From Gammaproteobacteria bacterium (GTDB lineage Bacteria > Pseudomonadota > Gammaproteobacteria > Pseudomonadales > Ketobacteraceae): a stretch of 64,000 bases of DNA. Shown here piece by piece: positions 1 through 25,115 of the stretch (positions are counted from its first letter, which is position 1; every line of letters starts with the position of its first letter). Where the stretch lies: positions 1-64,000 of the forward strand of contig JABLXQ010000008.1 of assembly GCA_013178375.1 (NCBI GenBank), in the 5' to 3' direction. The position numbers and the translations under genes are program-made. The notes beneath the pieces were generated by a model. It worked only from the letters and a program-made list of their open reading frames with translations, was not told the origin of the DNA and made no database searches.

Positions 1-116
1 TCCATTGCGGTTCTCCGTTACGTGTGCTTGGCGGCTCACGCTTCGGAGTTTCCGCGATGGACTCCAGGATATGTCAAACGTTTGCTGTCTCCCCGGCAGA
101 GCCGGGGGATTTCCCG
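1..116. other. Non-coding edge with GC-rich hairpin, possible mobile-element boundary
   Basis: No convincing frame runs through these bases. A perfect GC-rich hairpin (7-bp arms CCCCGGC/GCCGGGG, loop AGA) lies at 91-107. The adjacent esterase stops at 117, exactly where homologues would continue to the nucleophile elbow, so this segment looks foreign to that gene. An insertion-sequence end or its terminator is a possible explanation, but no transposase or terminal repeat can be seen because the window begins here. Confidence 0.35.
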
Positions 117-19502: not shown

Positions 19503-21050
19503 TCAGAGTTCGAAACGGATACCCTGCGCCAACGGAATGTCGGTGCCGTGGTTGATGGTGTTGGTGCTGCGTCGCATATAGTTCTTCCACGCATCCGATC
19601 CGGATTCCCGTCCGCCGCCGGTGTCTTTCTCGCCGCCGAATGCGCCGCCGATTTCCGCGCCGGAGGTACCGATATTCACGTTGGCAATACCGCAATCCGA
19701 CCCGGTCACTGCCAGAAACTGTTCCGCTTCCCGCAGATCATTGGTGAAAATCGCCGACGACAATCCCTGTGGCACATTGTTGTGCCAGTCCAGCGCCTGG
19801 CGCAGATCGAGAAACCGCACCACATACAGCAAAGGCGCGAAGGTTTCCTGCTGCAGGATTTCCGCATCCGGCGCGATGGCGATCACAGCAGGATTCACGT
19901 AGTAGCCACCGGCCGGCACATCAGCCTTGAGACGTTCTCCGCCATACAACAATTGCCCACCCTGAGCCTCGGCCGCCTTGATCGCCTGCTGGAAGCGGGT
20001 AAATGAAGCCTTGTCGATAAGCGGACCACACAGCACCTGTTCGTCGCGCGGATCGCCGATGCGCAACGTTTTCAGCGCTGCAATCAGTTTGGTTTCGAAA
20101 TAATTGGCGATGGATTCGTGCAGGAACAGCCGGCGCAAACTGGTGCAGCGCTGACCGCTGGTGCCGACAAAAGAAAAGGTCACGCCTTTCAGCGCCAGAT
20201 CCAGATCCGCTTTCTTCGACACAATGATGCCGTTATTCCCACCCAGCTCCAGCAAACTGCGACCCAGCCGTGCAGCCACCGTCTGCGCCACGCTGCGCCC
20301 CATCGCCACCGAGCCGGTGGCCGACACCAGCGCCACCTGCTGATGAGCCGCCAGTGCTTCGCCCACGTCCGCACCGCCGACAATTACGCTCGACAGCGAT
20401 TCAAACTGGTCCATGCCGCAGGTTTTCACTGCTTCCTGCAATAACTGCTGGCAGGCCAGCGCGCACAGCGGCGTTTTCTCCGACGGCTTCCACACCAGCG
20501 TGTTGCCGCACACCAGCGCCAGCGTTGCATTCCACGCCCACACGGCCATGGGAAAATTGAAGGCGGTGATGATGCCGACCACACCCAGCGGATGCCACTG
20601 CTCCATCATGCGATGCTGGGGCCGCTCGCTGGCAATGGTAAGCCCGGTGAGCTGGCGCGACAGGCCCACCGCGAAATCGCAAATGTCGATCAGCTCCTGC
20701 ACCTCGCCCAGAGCTTCCTGCATCGTCTTGCCCGCTTCCAGTACGATAAAGCGGGCAAGATAAATTTTGCATTCGCGCGCGATCTCGCCCATCACCCGCA
20801 CCAGCTCACCGCGCCGGGGCGCCGGCAGCTGGCGCCAGTCCAAAAAACAGTGGTGGGCTTCACTTACCAGCGCATTGATCTTGTCGGGGGACGCATAACC
20901 GATCTTGGCCAGACTGCTGCCATCGATGGGTGAATTCACATTCTGCTGCTGCGGAGTAAATCCCATCCGGCTGCCGCAGGCCCAGGCGGGAAACGCCTGA
21001 TCGGCGTGCCAGAATTCTGCCAATTCCTGAATCGCTGCATTCCATACCAT
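19503..21050 (-). CDS. amaB: ALDH7-like aldehyde dehydrogenase, probable alpha-aminoadipate semialdehyde dehydrogenase
   Basis: A 515-residue NAD(P)-dependent dehydrogenase. ELGGNN carries the general base Glu, GTSGQRCTSLRR the catalytic Cys in the antiquitin (ALDH7) style, and GEKDTGGGRESGSDAWKNYMRR the C-terminal signature of that family. ALDH7 members oxidise alpha-aminoadipate semialdehyde (AASA) to 2-aminoadipate in lysine breakdown. It is the third gene of a compact set with a lysine/saccharopine dehydrogenase-like gene and a HglS-like gene, 24 nt after the former, which supports that role. An AGGAGA site precedes the ATG. The symbol follows the pseudomonad AASA dehydrogenase and is tentative. 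Confidence 0.85.
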   Translation of the reverse strand: MVWNAAIQELAEFWHADQAFPAWACGSRMGFTPQQQNVNSPIDGSSLAKIGYASPDKINALVSEAHHCFLDWRQLPAPRRGELVRVMGEIARECKIYLARFIVLEAGKTMQEALGEVQELIDICDFAVGLSRQLTGLTIASERPQHRMMEQWHPLGVVGIITAFNFPMAVWAWNATLALVCGNTLVWKPSEKTPLCALACQQLLQEAVKTCGMDQFESLSSVIVGGADVGEALAAHQQVALVSATGSVAMGRSVAQTVAARLGRSLLELGGNNGIIVSKKADLDLALKGVTFSFVGTSGQRCTSLRRLFLHESIANYFETKLIAALKTLRIGDPRDEQVLCGPLIDKASFTRFQQAIKAAEAQGGQLLYGGERLKADVPAGGYYVNPAVIAIAPDAEILQQETFAPLLYVVRFLDLRQALDWHNNVPQGLSSAIFTNDLREAEQFLAVTGSDCGIANVNIGTSGAEIGGAFGGEKDTGGGRESGSDAWKNYMRRSTNTINHGTDIPLAQGIRFEL

Positions 21051-21074
21051 GTTGTTGTTCTCCTGTGTGCGCCT

Positions 21075-22193
21075 TCAGGCGTGCACGATCGGCTCTGCCG
21101 TTTTGTAGACCTCGCCAAATTCAGTGGCCAGAAAATCAGACAGGCGCACATCTTCCTGCCGCACGAAACCCTGTTGTGGAATACGGCCGGCAAAAAACAG
21201 ATCCACCACCGCGCACAGACTGGACGCAGTAGTCAGCTGGATCGAACTCCAGGTCTCGCCGTGAAATTTTTTGTGGTAAATCTTGCGGGCATCGGTCATC
21301 TGCTCGAACTGGCCATTGCGCCAACCCTGCACCGAGGCAAAGGTCAGCACCACATCCTGCCGCGTCATGGGCACGGCTTCTTCCAGAATGGATTTGAGCA
21401 TGGCGCGCTTGCGTGTGTCGCCCAGCTGCAATTCGCGGATCAGAAAATGCATCAGGTACTGGTGACCGCGATAACGCACAGTTTTGTAATTCAGTTCGCG
21501 CACCTGTCCCTGCAGGGTTTCGCACAGGGTGCCCAAACCGCCCGACGTATTGAAGGCTTCATACACCACGCCGTCGAGGGAAATCTGCTCCAACCCTTCC
21601 AGCGCCACCAGATTCATGGTCTGGTGATCCTGGATCGCCTCGCACAGATTGCAGTATTCGTTGATCAGGCCGTCGGTAGACCAGGTGAGGTTGTACATCA
21701 TGCGGTTGGTGGGATACTTGGGCAGCGCGCCCACCCGCATTTTCACGGAATCCAGCTTGTCGAAATGACGGCAGATATCCCAGGCCAGAATGCCGATAAA
21801 ACCCGGCGCCAGCCCGCACTGAGGCATGAAGATCTGGCCTGGACTGGCCTTCTCCGCCAGCGCCCGGATACGACGGGTGGTTTCCACATCCTCGGTCAGA
21901 TCGAAATAGCTGCAGCCGGCTTCGGCGCAGGTACTGGCGATCAGCGGATTCACATCATAGGAACAGGCCGACACCACCGCATTCCAGCCCTGGATGGCCT
22001 GCCGCAGCAGCGTGGCGTCGTGCACATCGAAGCTGGCGGTCTCGACACCCTTCAGGTGGGCAACGGATTCCAGCAGCGGCGTATGCTGCTCCACCACTTT
22101 CAGTTTGAACCGCCCTGCCGCATGCAACAGCTTGACGATGGCGGAACCGATCTTGCCACACCCCACCACGACCACACTGCCAACGATCGCCAT
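21075..22193 (-). CDS. Lysine 6-dehydrogenase / saccharopine dehydrogenase-like enzyme
   Basis: A 372-residue Rossmann enzyme with VVVGCGKIGSAIV at the N-terminus. EAFNTSGGLGTL, YKTVRYRGH and CGLAPGFIGIL correspond to conserved stretches of lysine 6-dehydrogenase, which oxidises lysine directly to AASA and belongs to the saccharopine dehydrogenase fold. No lysine-ketoglutarate reductase domain is present, which favours direct oxidation over the saccharopine route. The start at 22193 lies 4 nt after the stop of the HglS-like gene. Saccharopine or carboxynorspermidine dehydrogenase activity remains possible. Confidence 0.75.
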   Translation of the reverse strand: MAIVGSVVVVGCGKIGSAIVKLLHAAGRFKLKVVEQHTPLLESVAHLKGVETASFDVHDATLLRQAIQGWNAVVSACSYDVNPLIASTCAEAGCSYFDLTEDVETTRRIRALAEKASPGQIFMPQCGLAPGFIGILAWDICRHFDKLDSVKMRVGALPKYPTNRMMYNLTWSTDGLINEYCNLCEAIQDHQTMNLVALEGLEQISLDGVVYEAFNTSGGLGTLCETLQGQVRELNYKTVRYRGHQYLMHFLIRELQLGDTRKRAMLKSILEEAVPMTRQDVVLTFASVQGWRNGQFEQMTDARKIYHKKFHGETWSSIQLTTASSLCAVVDLFFAGRIPQQGFVRQEDVRLSDFLATEFGEVYKTAEPIVHA

Positions 22194-22197
22194 GATC

Positions 22198-23007
22198 CTA
22201 TCCCGTGCGCTGATGAAAAGTGGATTCGAAAATCCGGTCGGCGCTTTGCTCGACAAACCCCTGATACAAGGCGCCATCACTTAAAGGATAGCGCAAGGCG
22301 AATTCGTAATAGCAGGTTTTAACGGGATGCACGTCTCCATCCGCGAAACGGTACTCCATTTCGTCCGCCAGGGTGGACGCCTGCTGCAGCCCCACCGCCG
22401 CCGATCCCTTGATCAGCCCACCACTTTCGTTCAGGTGCAGCCCCAGTTCCCCGACAATGTCCAGCACCGCATCCAGCGACGGTGTCCGCGCCAGATGATT
22501 CACGCTGATGGTGAAATGATTGGCGCAATAACCCATCACCATCAGCCAGGCGGCGTATTCACTTTCCTGCAGCAGCTGCTGGTATTCGGGGTAGGAAATG
22601 CGCGGCCACAGGATACCCTCCCAGAAAAATGAAGGGTCCTCCGGCTCCGGCAGCTCGCCAATGCCCAGCCGGCGCAGGATGATATTGCGCGCGGTTTCCG
22701 ACAGCTGGTCCAGCAGCAGTTCACTGAGAAAGATTTTCGGCTGCAGCGGATCAGGATGACGGTAGGCAATCGCCTCCAGTTTCTTCTGGGGAAAACGGTA
22801 ACGGTCAAACGGGGCATACCCCAGTTGCGCCAGCAGCGGTTCCAGATGGGCAATATCCAAGGGGGAATGACGAAAGGTGCGAAACGCCACATGATCATTG
22901 ACCACCACACCATTGCGGGCCTGCACGGCCTCGAATATGCGCTGGGCCTGCGGCGTCACTGCCGTGTACTGCTCCCACAAGCGCTGGAAAAACACCGAAC
23001 AATCCAT
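22198..23007 (-). CDS. DUF1338 protein, probable 2-oxoadipate dioxygenase/decarboxylase (HglS-like)
   Basis: A 269-residue member of DUF1338, whose characterised member HglS converts 2-oxoadipate to 2-hydroxyglutarate with Fe(II) and O2 in Pseudomonas lysine catabolism. Candidate active-site residues line up: H39 and R43 (DHVAFRTF), H164 (NHFTISVNH) and E235 (CYYEFALRY). HglS is considerably longer; this is the short form of the family. AGGAGG stands ahead of ATG 23007. First gene of the lysine set. Assignment of the reaction is by family and context. Confidence 0.78.
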   Translation of the reverse strand: MDCSVFFQRLWEQYTAVTPQAQRIFEAVQARNGVVVNDHVAFRTFRHSPLDIAHLEPLLAQLGYAPFDRYRFPQKKLEAIAYRHPDPLQPKIFLSELLLDQLSETARNIILRRLGIGELPEPEDPSFFWEGILWPRISYPEYQQLLQESEYAAWLMVMGYCANHFTISVNHLARTPSLDAVLDIVGELGLHLNESGGLIKGSAAVGLQQASTLADEMEYRFADGDVHPVKTCYYEFALRYPLSDGALYQGFVEQSADRIFESTFHQRTG

Positions 23008-23136
23008 ACGCGACCTCCTGCGACAAAACAGCTGCGCAGCAGCCTGTTTCATCACAATAGGGGTGGCCGGAGGATTTTAGAAAGACTCAGATATTGCCAG
23101 CCGTAATCGGCTTATGCGCTGCAATGCTAAGGAAGA

Positions 23137-23346: not shown

Positions 23347-23513
23347 ATTCCACCCCCTGCGGTGTGCAATGGATGTCCGTATCCGGCTGCCAATCCTTTA
23401 TGACGTTTTCATTAATTTAGGAAGATGATTCTAATTTTTCTGTATACCTTGACGATCATATTGCCCCCACCGCCCTTTTAAAACCCTGTTTGAACACTTA
23501 TCGAGGAATGGCC

Positions 23514-23933
23514 ATGATCCAGGACAAAGTGAAAACCCAGATCGAACAACTGAAAAAGCAAAGCGAAAAACTGCAAGCCGGCCTGAACAAGCGGCTGGAC
23601 GACGCCAAGTCCGAGGGCCAGCGCATTCTTCTGGAACTGGGTGTAACAACCGATCCCAAGCAATTGACTTTGAACGAATTGGTGACCGAACTGCGTGCCG
23701 CCAACCCCACCGTGAAGGAATTCATCCGCAAGCTGGACGTCGCCACTTACGACAACCGCTTCCGCCTGAACTGGGACACCAGCATGATTTCTGCCTATGC
23801 CAAACAGCAGGCAGAAAAGAGCTATATCAAGGACTTGAAACCGAAACTGGAAGAAGTCCGCAACACCGTAACCGAACAACTGAAGGAAGTGCAGGCCAAG
23901 GCCAAAGAGCTGAAGGCCCGCATCTCCGCCTGA
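23514..23933 (+). CDS. Predicted coiled-coil protein, unrecognised
   Basis: A 139-residue, highly charged, lysine-rich protein. Residues about 1-40 and 100-139 are predicted coiled coils (QIEQLKKQSEKLQ, KEVQAKAKELKAR); a globular middle has LTLNELVTELRAANP. There is no signal peptide. Amphipathic helices of this kind recall phasins that coat polyhydroxyalkanoate granules, but no PHA gene is near, so that is only a possibility. ATGs at 23490 and 23508 are alternatives; 23514 has the best spacing from CGAGG. Followed by a strong terminator, so it is monocistronic. Confidence 0.6.
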   Translation: MIQDKVKTQIEQLKKQSEKLQAGLNKRLDDAKSEGQRILLELGVTTDPKQLTLNELVTELRAANPTVKEFIRKLDVATYDNRFRLNWDTSMISAYAKQQAEKSYIKDLKPKLEEVRNTVTEQLKEVQAKAKELKARISA

Positions 23934-24008: not shown

Positions 24009-24032
24009 AGCCCCCTCCCCGGGGGCTTTTTT
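24009..24032 (+). terminator. Intrinsic terminator
   Basis: The stem AGCCCCC/GGGGGCT (24009-24015 and 24021-24027) runs into a run of T to 24032, 75 nt after the coiled-coil gene's stop. Confidence 0.88.
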
Positions 24033-24091
24033 GTTTCCGGGCGTACACAACTGCTAGACTGATGCCTTACTAAAATGCCGGGAAGCATCGC

Positions 24092-24484
24092 ATGGAATGC
24101 CTTGAAATCAACCCGCCCAAAACCGTACTGGACTGGTTACCCCTGACCCAGTCCGACGACGAAGTAGCCCCCAAAAAAGGTGTTGTGCGTTGCCGCTCCT
24201 GCCGCGCCTACATCACCGAAAACCAGTTCCTGATCCCTGTGGACGGCGAATGCAGCCATTTTTTCAAGAATCCCGTGGGACAGGGGTTTGATATCCAGAC
24301 CTATGTAATGGCAGAAGGCTGCATCGTCAGCGGCAAGCCCACCGAGTTCTTCACCTGGTTCCCCGGCCACGCCTGGCAGTACGCCTACTGCAAGGGCTGC
24401 AACAACCACCTGGGCTGGTATTTCAGCTGTGACGGCATGACGGGGTTTTACGGCCTGATCATCGATCAGTTATTGCTGGAATGA
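24092..24484 (+). CDS. Free-standing CULT (cereblon thalidomide-binding-type) domain protein
   Basis: A 130-residue protein that is essentially one CULT domain, the zinc-bound ligand-binding fold of human cereblon's C-terminal part. C34-x2-C37 and C100-x2-C103 supply the zinc site. W89 (FTWFPG), W95 and W109 (HLGWYF) form the aromatic cage; their spacings (6 and 14 residues, and 5 from the second Trp to the third Cys) equal those of human W380, W386, W400 and C391. No Lon-like domain or signal peptide is present. Bacterial single-domain homologues such as the Magnetospirillum protein bind uracil- and imide-like ligands in vitro; the natural role is unknown. Convergent with yfbR. Confidence 0.9.
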   Translation: MECLEINPPKTVLDWLPLTQSDDEVAPKKGVVRCRSCRAYITENQFLIPVDGECSHFFKNPVGQGFDIQTYVMAEGCIVSGKPTEFFTWFPGHAWQYAYCKGCNNHLGWYFSCDGMTGFYGLIIDQLLLE

Positions 24485-24503: not shown

Positions 24504-25115
24504 TCAACCCAGCTCGTCCAGGGTCAGCCGGTAACTGGGCAGGAATTTTTCCAGAAAGAAATTCACTTCCGGCATCGCGTATTCGGCCAGCATGCCTTCC
24601 ACCCGCTCTCGCGCCACCTGGAATTCGTGATTGTTGGATTCCACTTCCTGAATACATTTGATATAGGCCGCCAGCACATCCGCCGCCTTGACGATGCGTT
24701 TCAGGTCGCGACTCATGGCGGCATCGTCGATCAGCGGTGCGTAGTCCGCCTGCAATTGCTCCGGCAGCATGGTCAGCAGTTTTGCTTTCGCGGCTTTTTC
24801 CACTTCCTTGTAGGCTTCCGCAATCGTCGGGTTGAAATACTTGATCGGCCCGGGCAGATCGCCGGTCAGCACTTCCGACGCGTCATGGAACAGCGCCACC
24901 ACCGCCAGCTGGTTGGCATCGACATTGCCGCCGAAATAACGGTTGCGGATCAACGCCAAGGCATGGGCAATCACGGCCACATCAAAACTGTGCTCCTTGA
25001 CGTTTTCGGTTTCGACATTGCGTTTCAGGCCCCAGCGCACGATGTACTTGAGCTTGGCCACGTAAGCGAAGAAGTGAAACAAGGGGGAGTCCTCCGGGGA
25101 GACCCGGCGCGCCAT
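24504..25115 (-). CDS. yfbR: 5'-deoxynucleotidase, YfbR-like HD domain
   Basis: A 203-residue HD-domain phosphohydrolase that dephosphorylates deoxynucleoside monophosphates. NVETENVKEHSFDVAVIAH carries the first metal His, LFHDASEV the HD pair, and TGDLPGPIKYFNP the YfbR signature that follows it. It lies 25 nt downstream of the PIN-PhoH gene and is likely cotranscribed with it. Shares a 20-nt convergent gap with the CULT gene. Confidence 0.9.
   Translation of the reverse strand: MARRVSPEDSPLFHFFAYVAKLKYIVRWGLKRNVETENVKEHSFDVAVIAHALALIRNRYFGGNVDANQLAVVALFHDASEVLTGDLPGPIKYFNPTIAEAYKEVEKAAKAKLLTMLPEQLQADYAPLIDDAAMSRDLKRIVKAADVLAAYIKCIQEVESNNHEFQVARERVEGMLAEYAMPEVNFFLEKFLPSYRLTLDELG

Follow-up and report, generated by a model that had tools for sequence, protein, structure and literature searches.

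What a bacterium does with a free-standing cereblon-like CULT domain is the question raised by this locus. The window, that is, the whole stretch of DNA analysed (64,000 nucleotides of a gammaproteobacterial contig), carries an open reading frame which the original prediction had described as a single-domain CULT protein. The CULT family was defined by Lupas et al. 2015 (PMC4287342). Bacterial proteins consisting wholly of this domain were found mainly in deltaproteobacteria, and also in a few alpha- and gammaproteobacteria and one spirochaete (PMC4287342). The single-domain make-up is the published norm for bacterial CULT proteins and so not an unusual trait, and the window protein is a further member of this group, known since 2015. 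By its description it can be likened to the CULT protein of Gammaproteobacterium BDW918 (WP_008249149.1, Lupas et al. 2015), a published single-domain gammaproteobacterial member. The view that the physiological function of bacterial CULT proteins is unsettled agrees with the literature searched.

The CULT gene and its product

The reading frame, its strand and the predicted positions of the zinc-site cysteines and the cage tryptophans were all confirmed. The features of the gene and of the encoded protein are the following.

24092..24484, + strand: CULT protein gene, intact open reading frame with ATG start, 130 codons and stop
24092..24181, + strand: N-terminal tail (residues 1-30), predicted to be disordered, with the family-specific elements CLEI.PP and WL
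24191..24202, + strand: first zinc CxxC (C34, C37), invariant in 165/165 lineages
24269..24280, + strand: NPxG hairpin motif (N60, P61, V62, G63); N in 164/165, P in 163/165 and G in 162/165 lineages
24347..24376, + strand: loop with F86, F87, T88 and W89 up to W95, aligned with the human 377-386 region
24389..24400, + strand: second zinc CxxC (C100, C103), invariant in 165/165 lineages
24416..24424, + strand: cage base W109 and F111 (human W400 and F402); W in 165/165, F in 92 and Y in 72 of 165 lineages

The genome contains a single CULT copy. Its same-genus orthologue is 75% identical, the pN/pS of the pair is 0.23, and homologues occur in several phyla; the window CULT is a real gene and it is under purifying selection. 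Human cereblon possesses LON and DDB1-binding domains, while the window protein is without both; a Pfam search of its 130 amino acids revealed no LON domain, and the protein thus lacks the LON-CULT fusion of cereblon proper. The absence of a Lon-like partner had been predicted correctly. The description of the protein as only a CULT domain stood as far as a second domain is concerned, but it had omitted the tail of about 30 residues, predicted to be disordered, which is the only other part of the protein.

No NCBIfam model matched the window CULT, and its Pfam match to Yippee-Mis18 (PF03226) was sub-threshold, 23.3 bits against a cut-off of 26.6. Such a match, and the fact that aromatic cages commonly bind cations, would fit a yippee-type structural zinc protein, the cage of which binds a modified side chain (methyl-lysine-like) and not an imide. 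This explanation is very improbable, since the CULT tri-Trp cage and the NPxG motif are conserved throughout the 165 lineages, and when such cations were tried on cereblon in vitro the outcome was inconclusive (PMC4449219).

Fold and binding pocket

Among solved structures the best match was MsCI4 (MGR_0879), cereblon isoform 4 of Magnetospirillum gryphiswaldense (phmmer E 4e-21), followed by human and chicken cereblon (E about 1e-9 to 1e-11). An AlphaFold2 model was built on an alignment of 58 sequences; the pLDDT was 93-98 for residues 31-130, and the preceding tail was disordered. The top Foldseek match of the model was 5amh. In the comparison suggested with the original prediction, the model superposed both on MsCI4 (VIA, Z 19.7, rmsd 1.1 A, 101 residues) and on the human CRBN TBD (VIA, Z 18.2), and the CULT fold was kept. 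The best 50 VIA matches were cereblon entries only, and the deoxyuridine complex 4v31 was among the VIA structural matches. Thus the window protein, as modelled, has the beta-tent fold of the CULT family.

The ligand contacts of MsCI4 comprise Trp79, Trp85 and Trp99 (human Trp380, 386 and 400), the backbone of Phe77 (His378) and of Trp79, Glu76 (Glu377), Pro51, Ala52 (His353), and Tyr101 in place of the human Phe (PMC8900816). These positions map without a gap onto W89, W95, W109, F87, F86, P61, V62 and F111 of the window protein. The two proteins share the single domain, the zinc site and the tri-Trp cage, they are about 34-36% identical with no gap through residue 113, and their spacing is the same from residue 25 to 113. 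The features that define the family were all present: Trp at the positions of MsCI4 79/85/99, two CxxC pairs, and the NPxG motif at the inserted hairpin named in PMC4449219. The likeness to human cereblon (Z about 18) includes the equivalents of W380/W386/W400, the zinc site and the Phe402 equivalent.

The earlier statement that the spacing of the human pocket is reproduced exactly was, however, too strong. The aligned human segment is two residues longer (window 33-114 = 82, human chain 7-90 = 84), and human Glu377, His378 and Tyr384 are replaced by Phe86, Phe87 and His93. Relative to MsCI4 the changes are Glu76, Tyr83 and Tyr101 to Phe86, His93 and Phe111, the last being the human residue. 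Conservation was evaluated on one representative per lineage at 60% identity, giving 165 bacterial lineages. Both CxxC pairs, the three cage Trp residues, F90 and G108 were invariant in all 165, while Glu is the commonest residue at position 86 (104/165) and Tyr at position 93 (90/165). As judged from the alignment, the cage is conserved and the rim differs from that of the human protein. Since the equivalents of E377 and Y384 are changed, the affinity or the exit-vector preference may differ. Sequence, model and conservation together support the assignment to the CULT family with an intact zinc site and tri-Trp cage.

Distribution of the family

One peptide pattern gave 163 relatives in 84,980 GTDB genomes. 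Profile searches were positive in 22/58 close relatives and in 21/398 members of the phylum; in the phyla of L075, L054, L055 and L056 the counts were 39/395, 7/247, 45/195 and 32/247, respectively, and in the class of L072 71/145. Plasmid, phage and viral collections yielded no CULT homologue, and horizontal mobility of the gene was rejected on this basis. Among the 80 full-length bacterial CULT proteins listed, no added domain of the LON-CULT type was seen when they were judged by eye. The in-frame stops apparent in some listed homologues were discarded as a feature; those that were read through proved to be the terminal stop.

Candidate ligands

The invariance of the cage across 165 lineages means that the ligand must matter. 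We infer the ligand class of the window protein, its physiological ligand and any downstream step. Eukaryotic cereblon recognises C-terminal cyclic imides, which leads to degradation, and PCMT1 is able to create such ends, according to PMC13001092 and its references. Since the cage is invariant and the eukaryotic counterpart has such a role, the preferred reading is that the window protein is a cytosolic protein that reads cyclic imides at the C-termini of proteins which have been damaged or cleaved, for which we consider the case evenly balanced. The zinc-pinned beta-tent would present W89, W95 and W109 and take up a five- or six-membered cyclic imide, hydrogen-bonded to the F87 and W89 backbone. 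The natural ligand would likely be the cyclic imide that forms at a protein or peptide C-terminus when the chain is cleaved or cyclised at Asn or Gln, and its recognition would amount to the reading of damaged C-termini. Hand-over to an AAA+ protease would be the likeliest downstream step, though at below even odds. The loci surveyed showed no pcm (PIMT) gene in the vicinity of CULT.

Binding of thalidomide and uridine by MsCI4 has been demonstrated by thermal shift and NMR; uridine was bound with low micromolar affinity, thymidine and cytidine were not (PMC4449219). An imide peptide is thus not a unique candidate for the ligand. These data and the deoxyuridine complex mentioned above favour a sensor or buffer of uridine or of other pyrimidine, dihydrouracil or hydantoin-type metabolites, possibly tied to nucleotide turnover by YfbR, as the gene next to CULT might imply. 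The features of the neighbourhood are the following.

23511..23933, + strand: upstream coiled-coil-type helical protein of 140-147 amino acids, sub-threshold DUF6447 match (Pfam scan)
24009..24034, + strand: intrinsic-terminator-like hairpin in the gap between the coiled-coil gene and CULT (consensus scan only)
24504..25115, - strand: yfbR 5'-deoxynucleotidase, convergent (Pfam PF12917, E 6.5e-76)

The neighbours are those originally predicted, a helical ORF that precedes CULT on its own strand, and the convergent yfbR, whose stop codon lies 20 nt beyond that of CULT. The further idea of a nucleotide ligand, suggested by yfbR, was not borne out. Being convergent, yfbR is not co-transcribed with CULT, and in the synteny survey of homologues proposed earlier, which covered 236 loci and counted lineages, it gave no support to a nucleotide link: the conserved pairing of CULT with the coiled-coil gene (10 loci) and with yfbR (9 loci) is confined to the family of the window protein. 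YfbR was therefore rejected as a functional partner. The top neighbour families include no other recurring pyrimidine gene, and the authors of the MsCI4 study found no biological context for uridine binding (PMC4449219). A pyrimidine sensor is thus quite unlikely, and less likely than either delivery to an AAA+ protease or the cyclic-imide reader.

The coiled-coil gene, which precedes CULT throughout the family, was also rejected as an operon partner, owing to the terminator-like hairpin and to the family-restricted pairing. The hairpin, found by a consensus scan only, suggests that CULT is probably a transcription unit of its own. Further upstream (19503-23055) lie lysine-catabolism-type genes, namely an aldehyde dehydrogenase, a saccharopine-dehydrogenase-like gene and HglS; genes of this type were also seen near CULT in several relatives.

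AAA+ protease genes near CULT

The survey revealed no universally conserved neighbour that would point to a pathway. In a few unrelated lineages, CULT was found close to genes of AAA+ proteases. In L099 (9974-13346) CULT, clpS and clpA follow each other in this order on one strand. The clpA gene is convergent to CULT at 13-14 nt in L054 and L199, it lies at most 3.3 kb away in L055, L197 and L201, and 7.4 kb away in L263. Directly downstream of CULT and on the same strand, lon occurs in L072 (1026-4316, full length) and in L249 (190-2408, its frame breaking near 2408). This lon encodes the LON_substr_bdg domain, the domain fused to CULT in eukaryotic cereblon (PMC4287342).

These arrangements suggest an extension of the cyclic-imide reader, and compatible with it: CULT would capture C-terminal cyclic-imide degrons, and its disordered tail would dock on ClpA, Lon or another unfoldase, so that bacterial CULT would be a ubiquitin-free counterpart of cereblon. 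Precedents for such adaptors are ClpS, which acts on N-degrons, and SspB, which acts on ssrA tags. At the level of hypothesis the likeness lies in a small domain which binds a degron and has a flexible tail attached; the folds of ClpS and SspB are unrelated to CULT, and the adaptor role of CULT is putative. A proposal of a role for bacterial CULT in AAA+ proteolysis was not found in the literature searched, most subscription journals being outside its scope.

Five AAA+ protease genes were near CULT in 7 lineages within 5 kb and in 4 within 600 nt, compared with 4 and 1 lineages for 25 control genes, the motif searches differing in sensitivity from gene to gene. The binomial p was 0.0006 raw and 0.03 with related loci collapsed for 5 kb, and 0.003 for 600 nt; since the idea of the contrast came from the sighting of clpA, these values are optimistic. 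The contrast was framed post hoc, and Lon was checked afterwards in the fixed panel. In a pre-stated retest on 20 fresh CULT loci neither a protease nor a control gene was nearby. The adjacency of lon was missing in the sampled relatives of L072 and L249; ClpX, FtsH and HslU were never near CULT in the survey, and neither clp nor lon was near it in the window's own family. RimO, a candidate for a cross-phylum neighbour, was rejected because two of its matches were MiaB/MtaB-like paralogues.

An MsrB-type gene also recurs, 3-8 kb from CULT in five lineages (L053, L084, L191, L212, L267), which is probably due to chance; some recurrence by chance is accordingly to be expected in such counts. MsrB shares the beta-tent fold.

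The N-terminal tail

Bacterial CULT domains are preceded by tails of 20-60 residues. A hydrophobic-hydrophobic-[RK] pattern was first seen in 21/46 tails, against 9.0 in shuffled ones. In lineages not used before, the form h[FL][RK] was present in 54 of 122 tails (18.9 +- 3.7 when shuffled), while matching acidic and Ser/Thr control patterns were not enriched in the tails. With start codons assigned mechanically, some of the tails extend too far, and the signal should be weaker for it. We know of no description of this motif. It is often followed by x-P, as in YLFRVPPEK; examples are L101 (9911-10030), L119, L157 and L273. Docking of the tail on its own CULT domain was rejected, the tails being of low confidence in two AF2 models.

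The enrichment in independent lineages favours a docking role of the tail in the adaptor scheme. The motif is absent from the window protein and its family, where all 12 of 12 tails carry L[DE][HNKI] instead. Taking the neighbouring genes, the retest and the tails together, we regard an AAA+ adaptor function as rather unlikely for the window protein. In general terms, it is doubtful that bacterial CULT proteins are C-degron adaptors which capture proteins with a cyclic-imide end and hand them over to ClpAP or Lon by means of a motif in the disordered tail.

If the adaptor explanation were true, it would represent a ubiquitin-independent pathway, ancestral or parallel to that of cereblon, and the LON-CULT fusion of the eukaryotic protein would be accounted for. 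A protease link would tie the target of thalidomide to bacterial protein quality control and would open a route to targeted degradation in bacteria. Drug design uses one bacterial cereblon-like protein as a standard model. The present analysis adds a CULT survey and two leads on bacterial CULT function, the protease linkage and the tail motif; delivery to AAA+ proteases is a tentative proposal, testable but unproven.

Further conserved gene arrangements

Two other arrangements were noted in the survey. A Desulfobulbus-type group has a conserved block in which CULT is preceded by hemC and a cobA/hemD-like gene, the gene names being judged from sequence (L074, L084, L090, L097, L115, L121, L123, L173, L174, L179). 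In one spirochaete group (L235, L238, L239, L244, L246, L252) 2 nt separate the end of CULT from a convergent anti-sigma-factor-like gene, beyond which lies an ECF-sigma-like gene.
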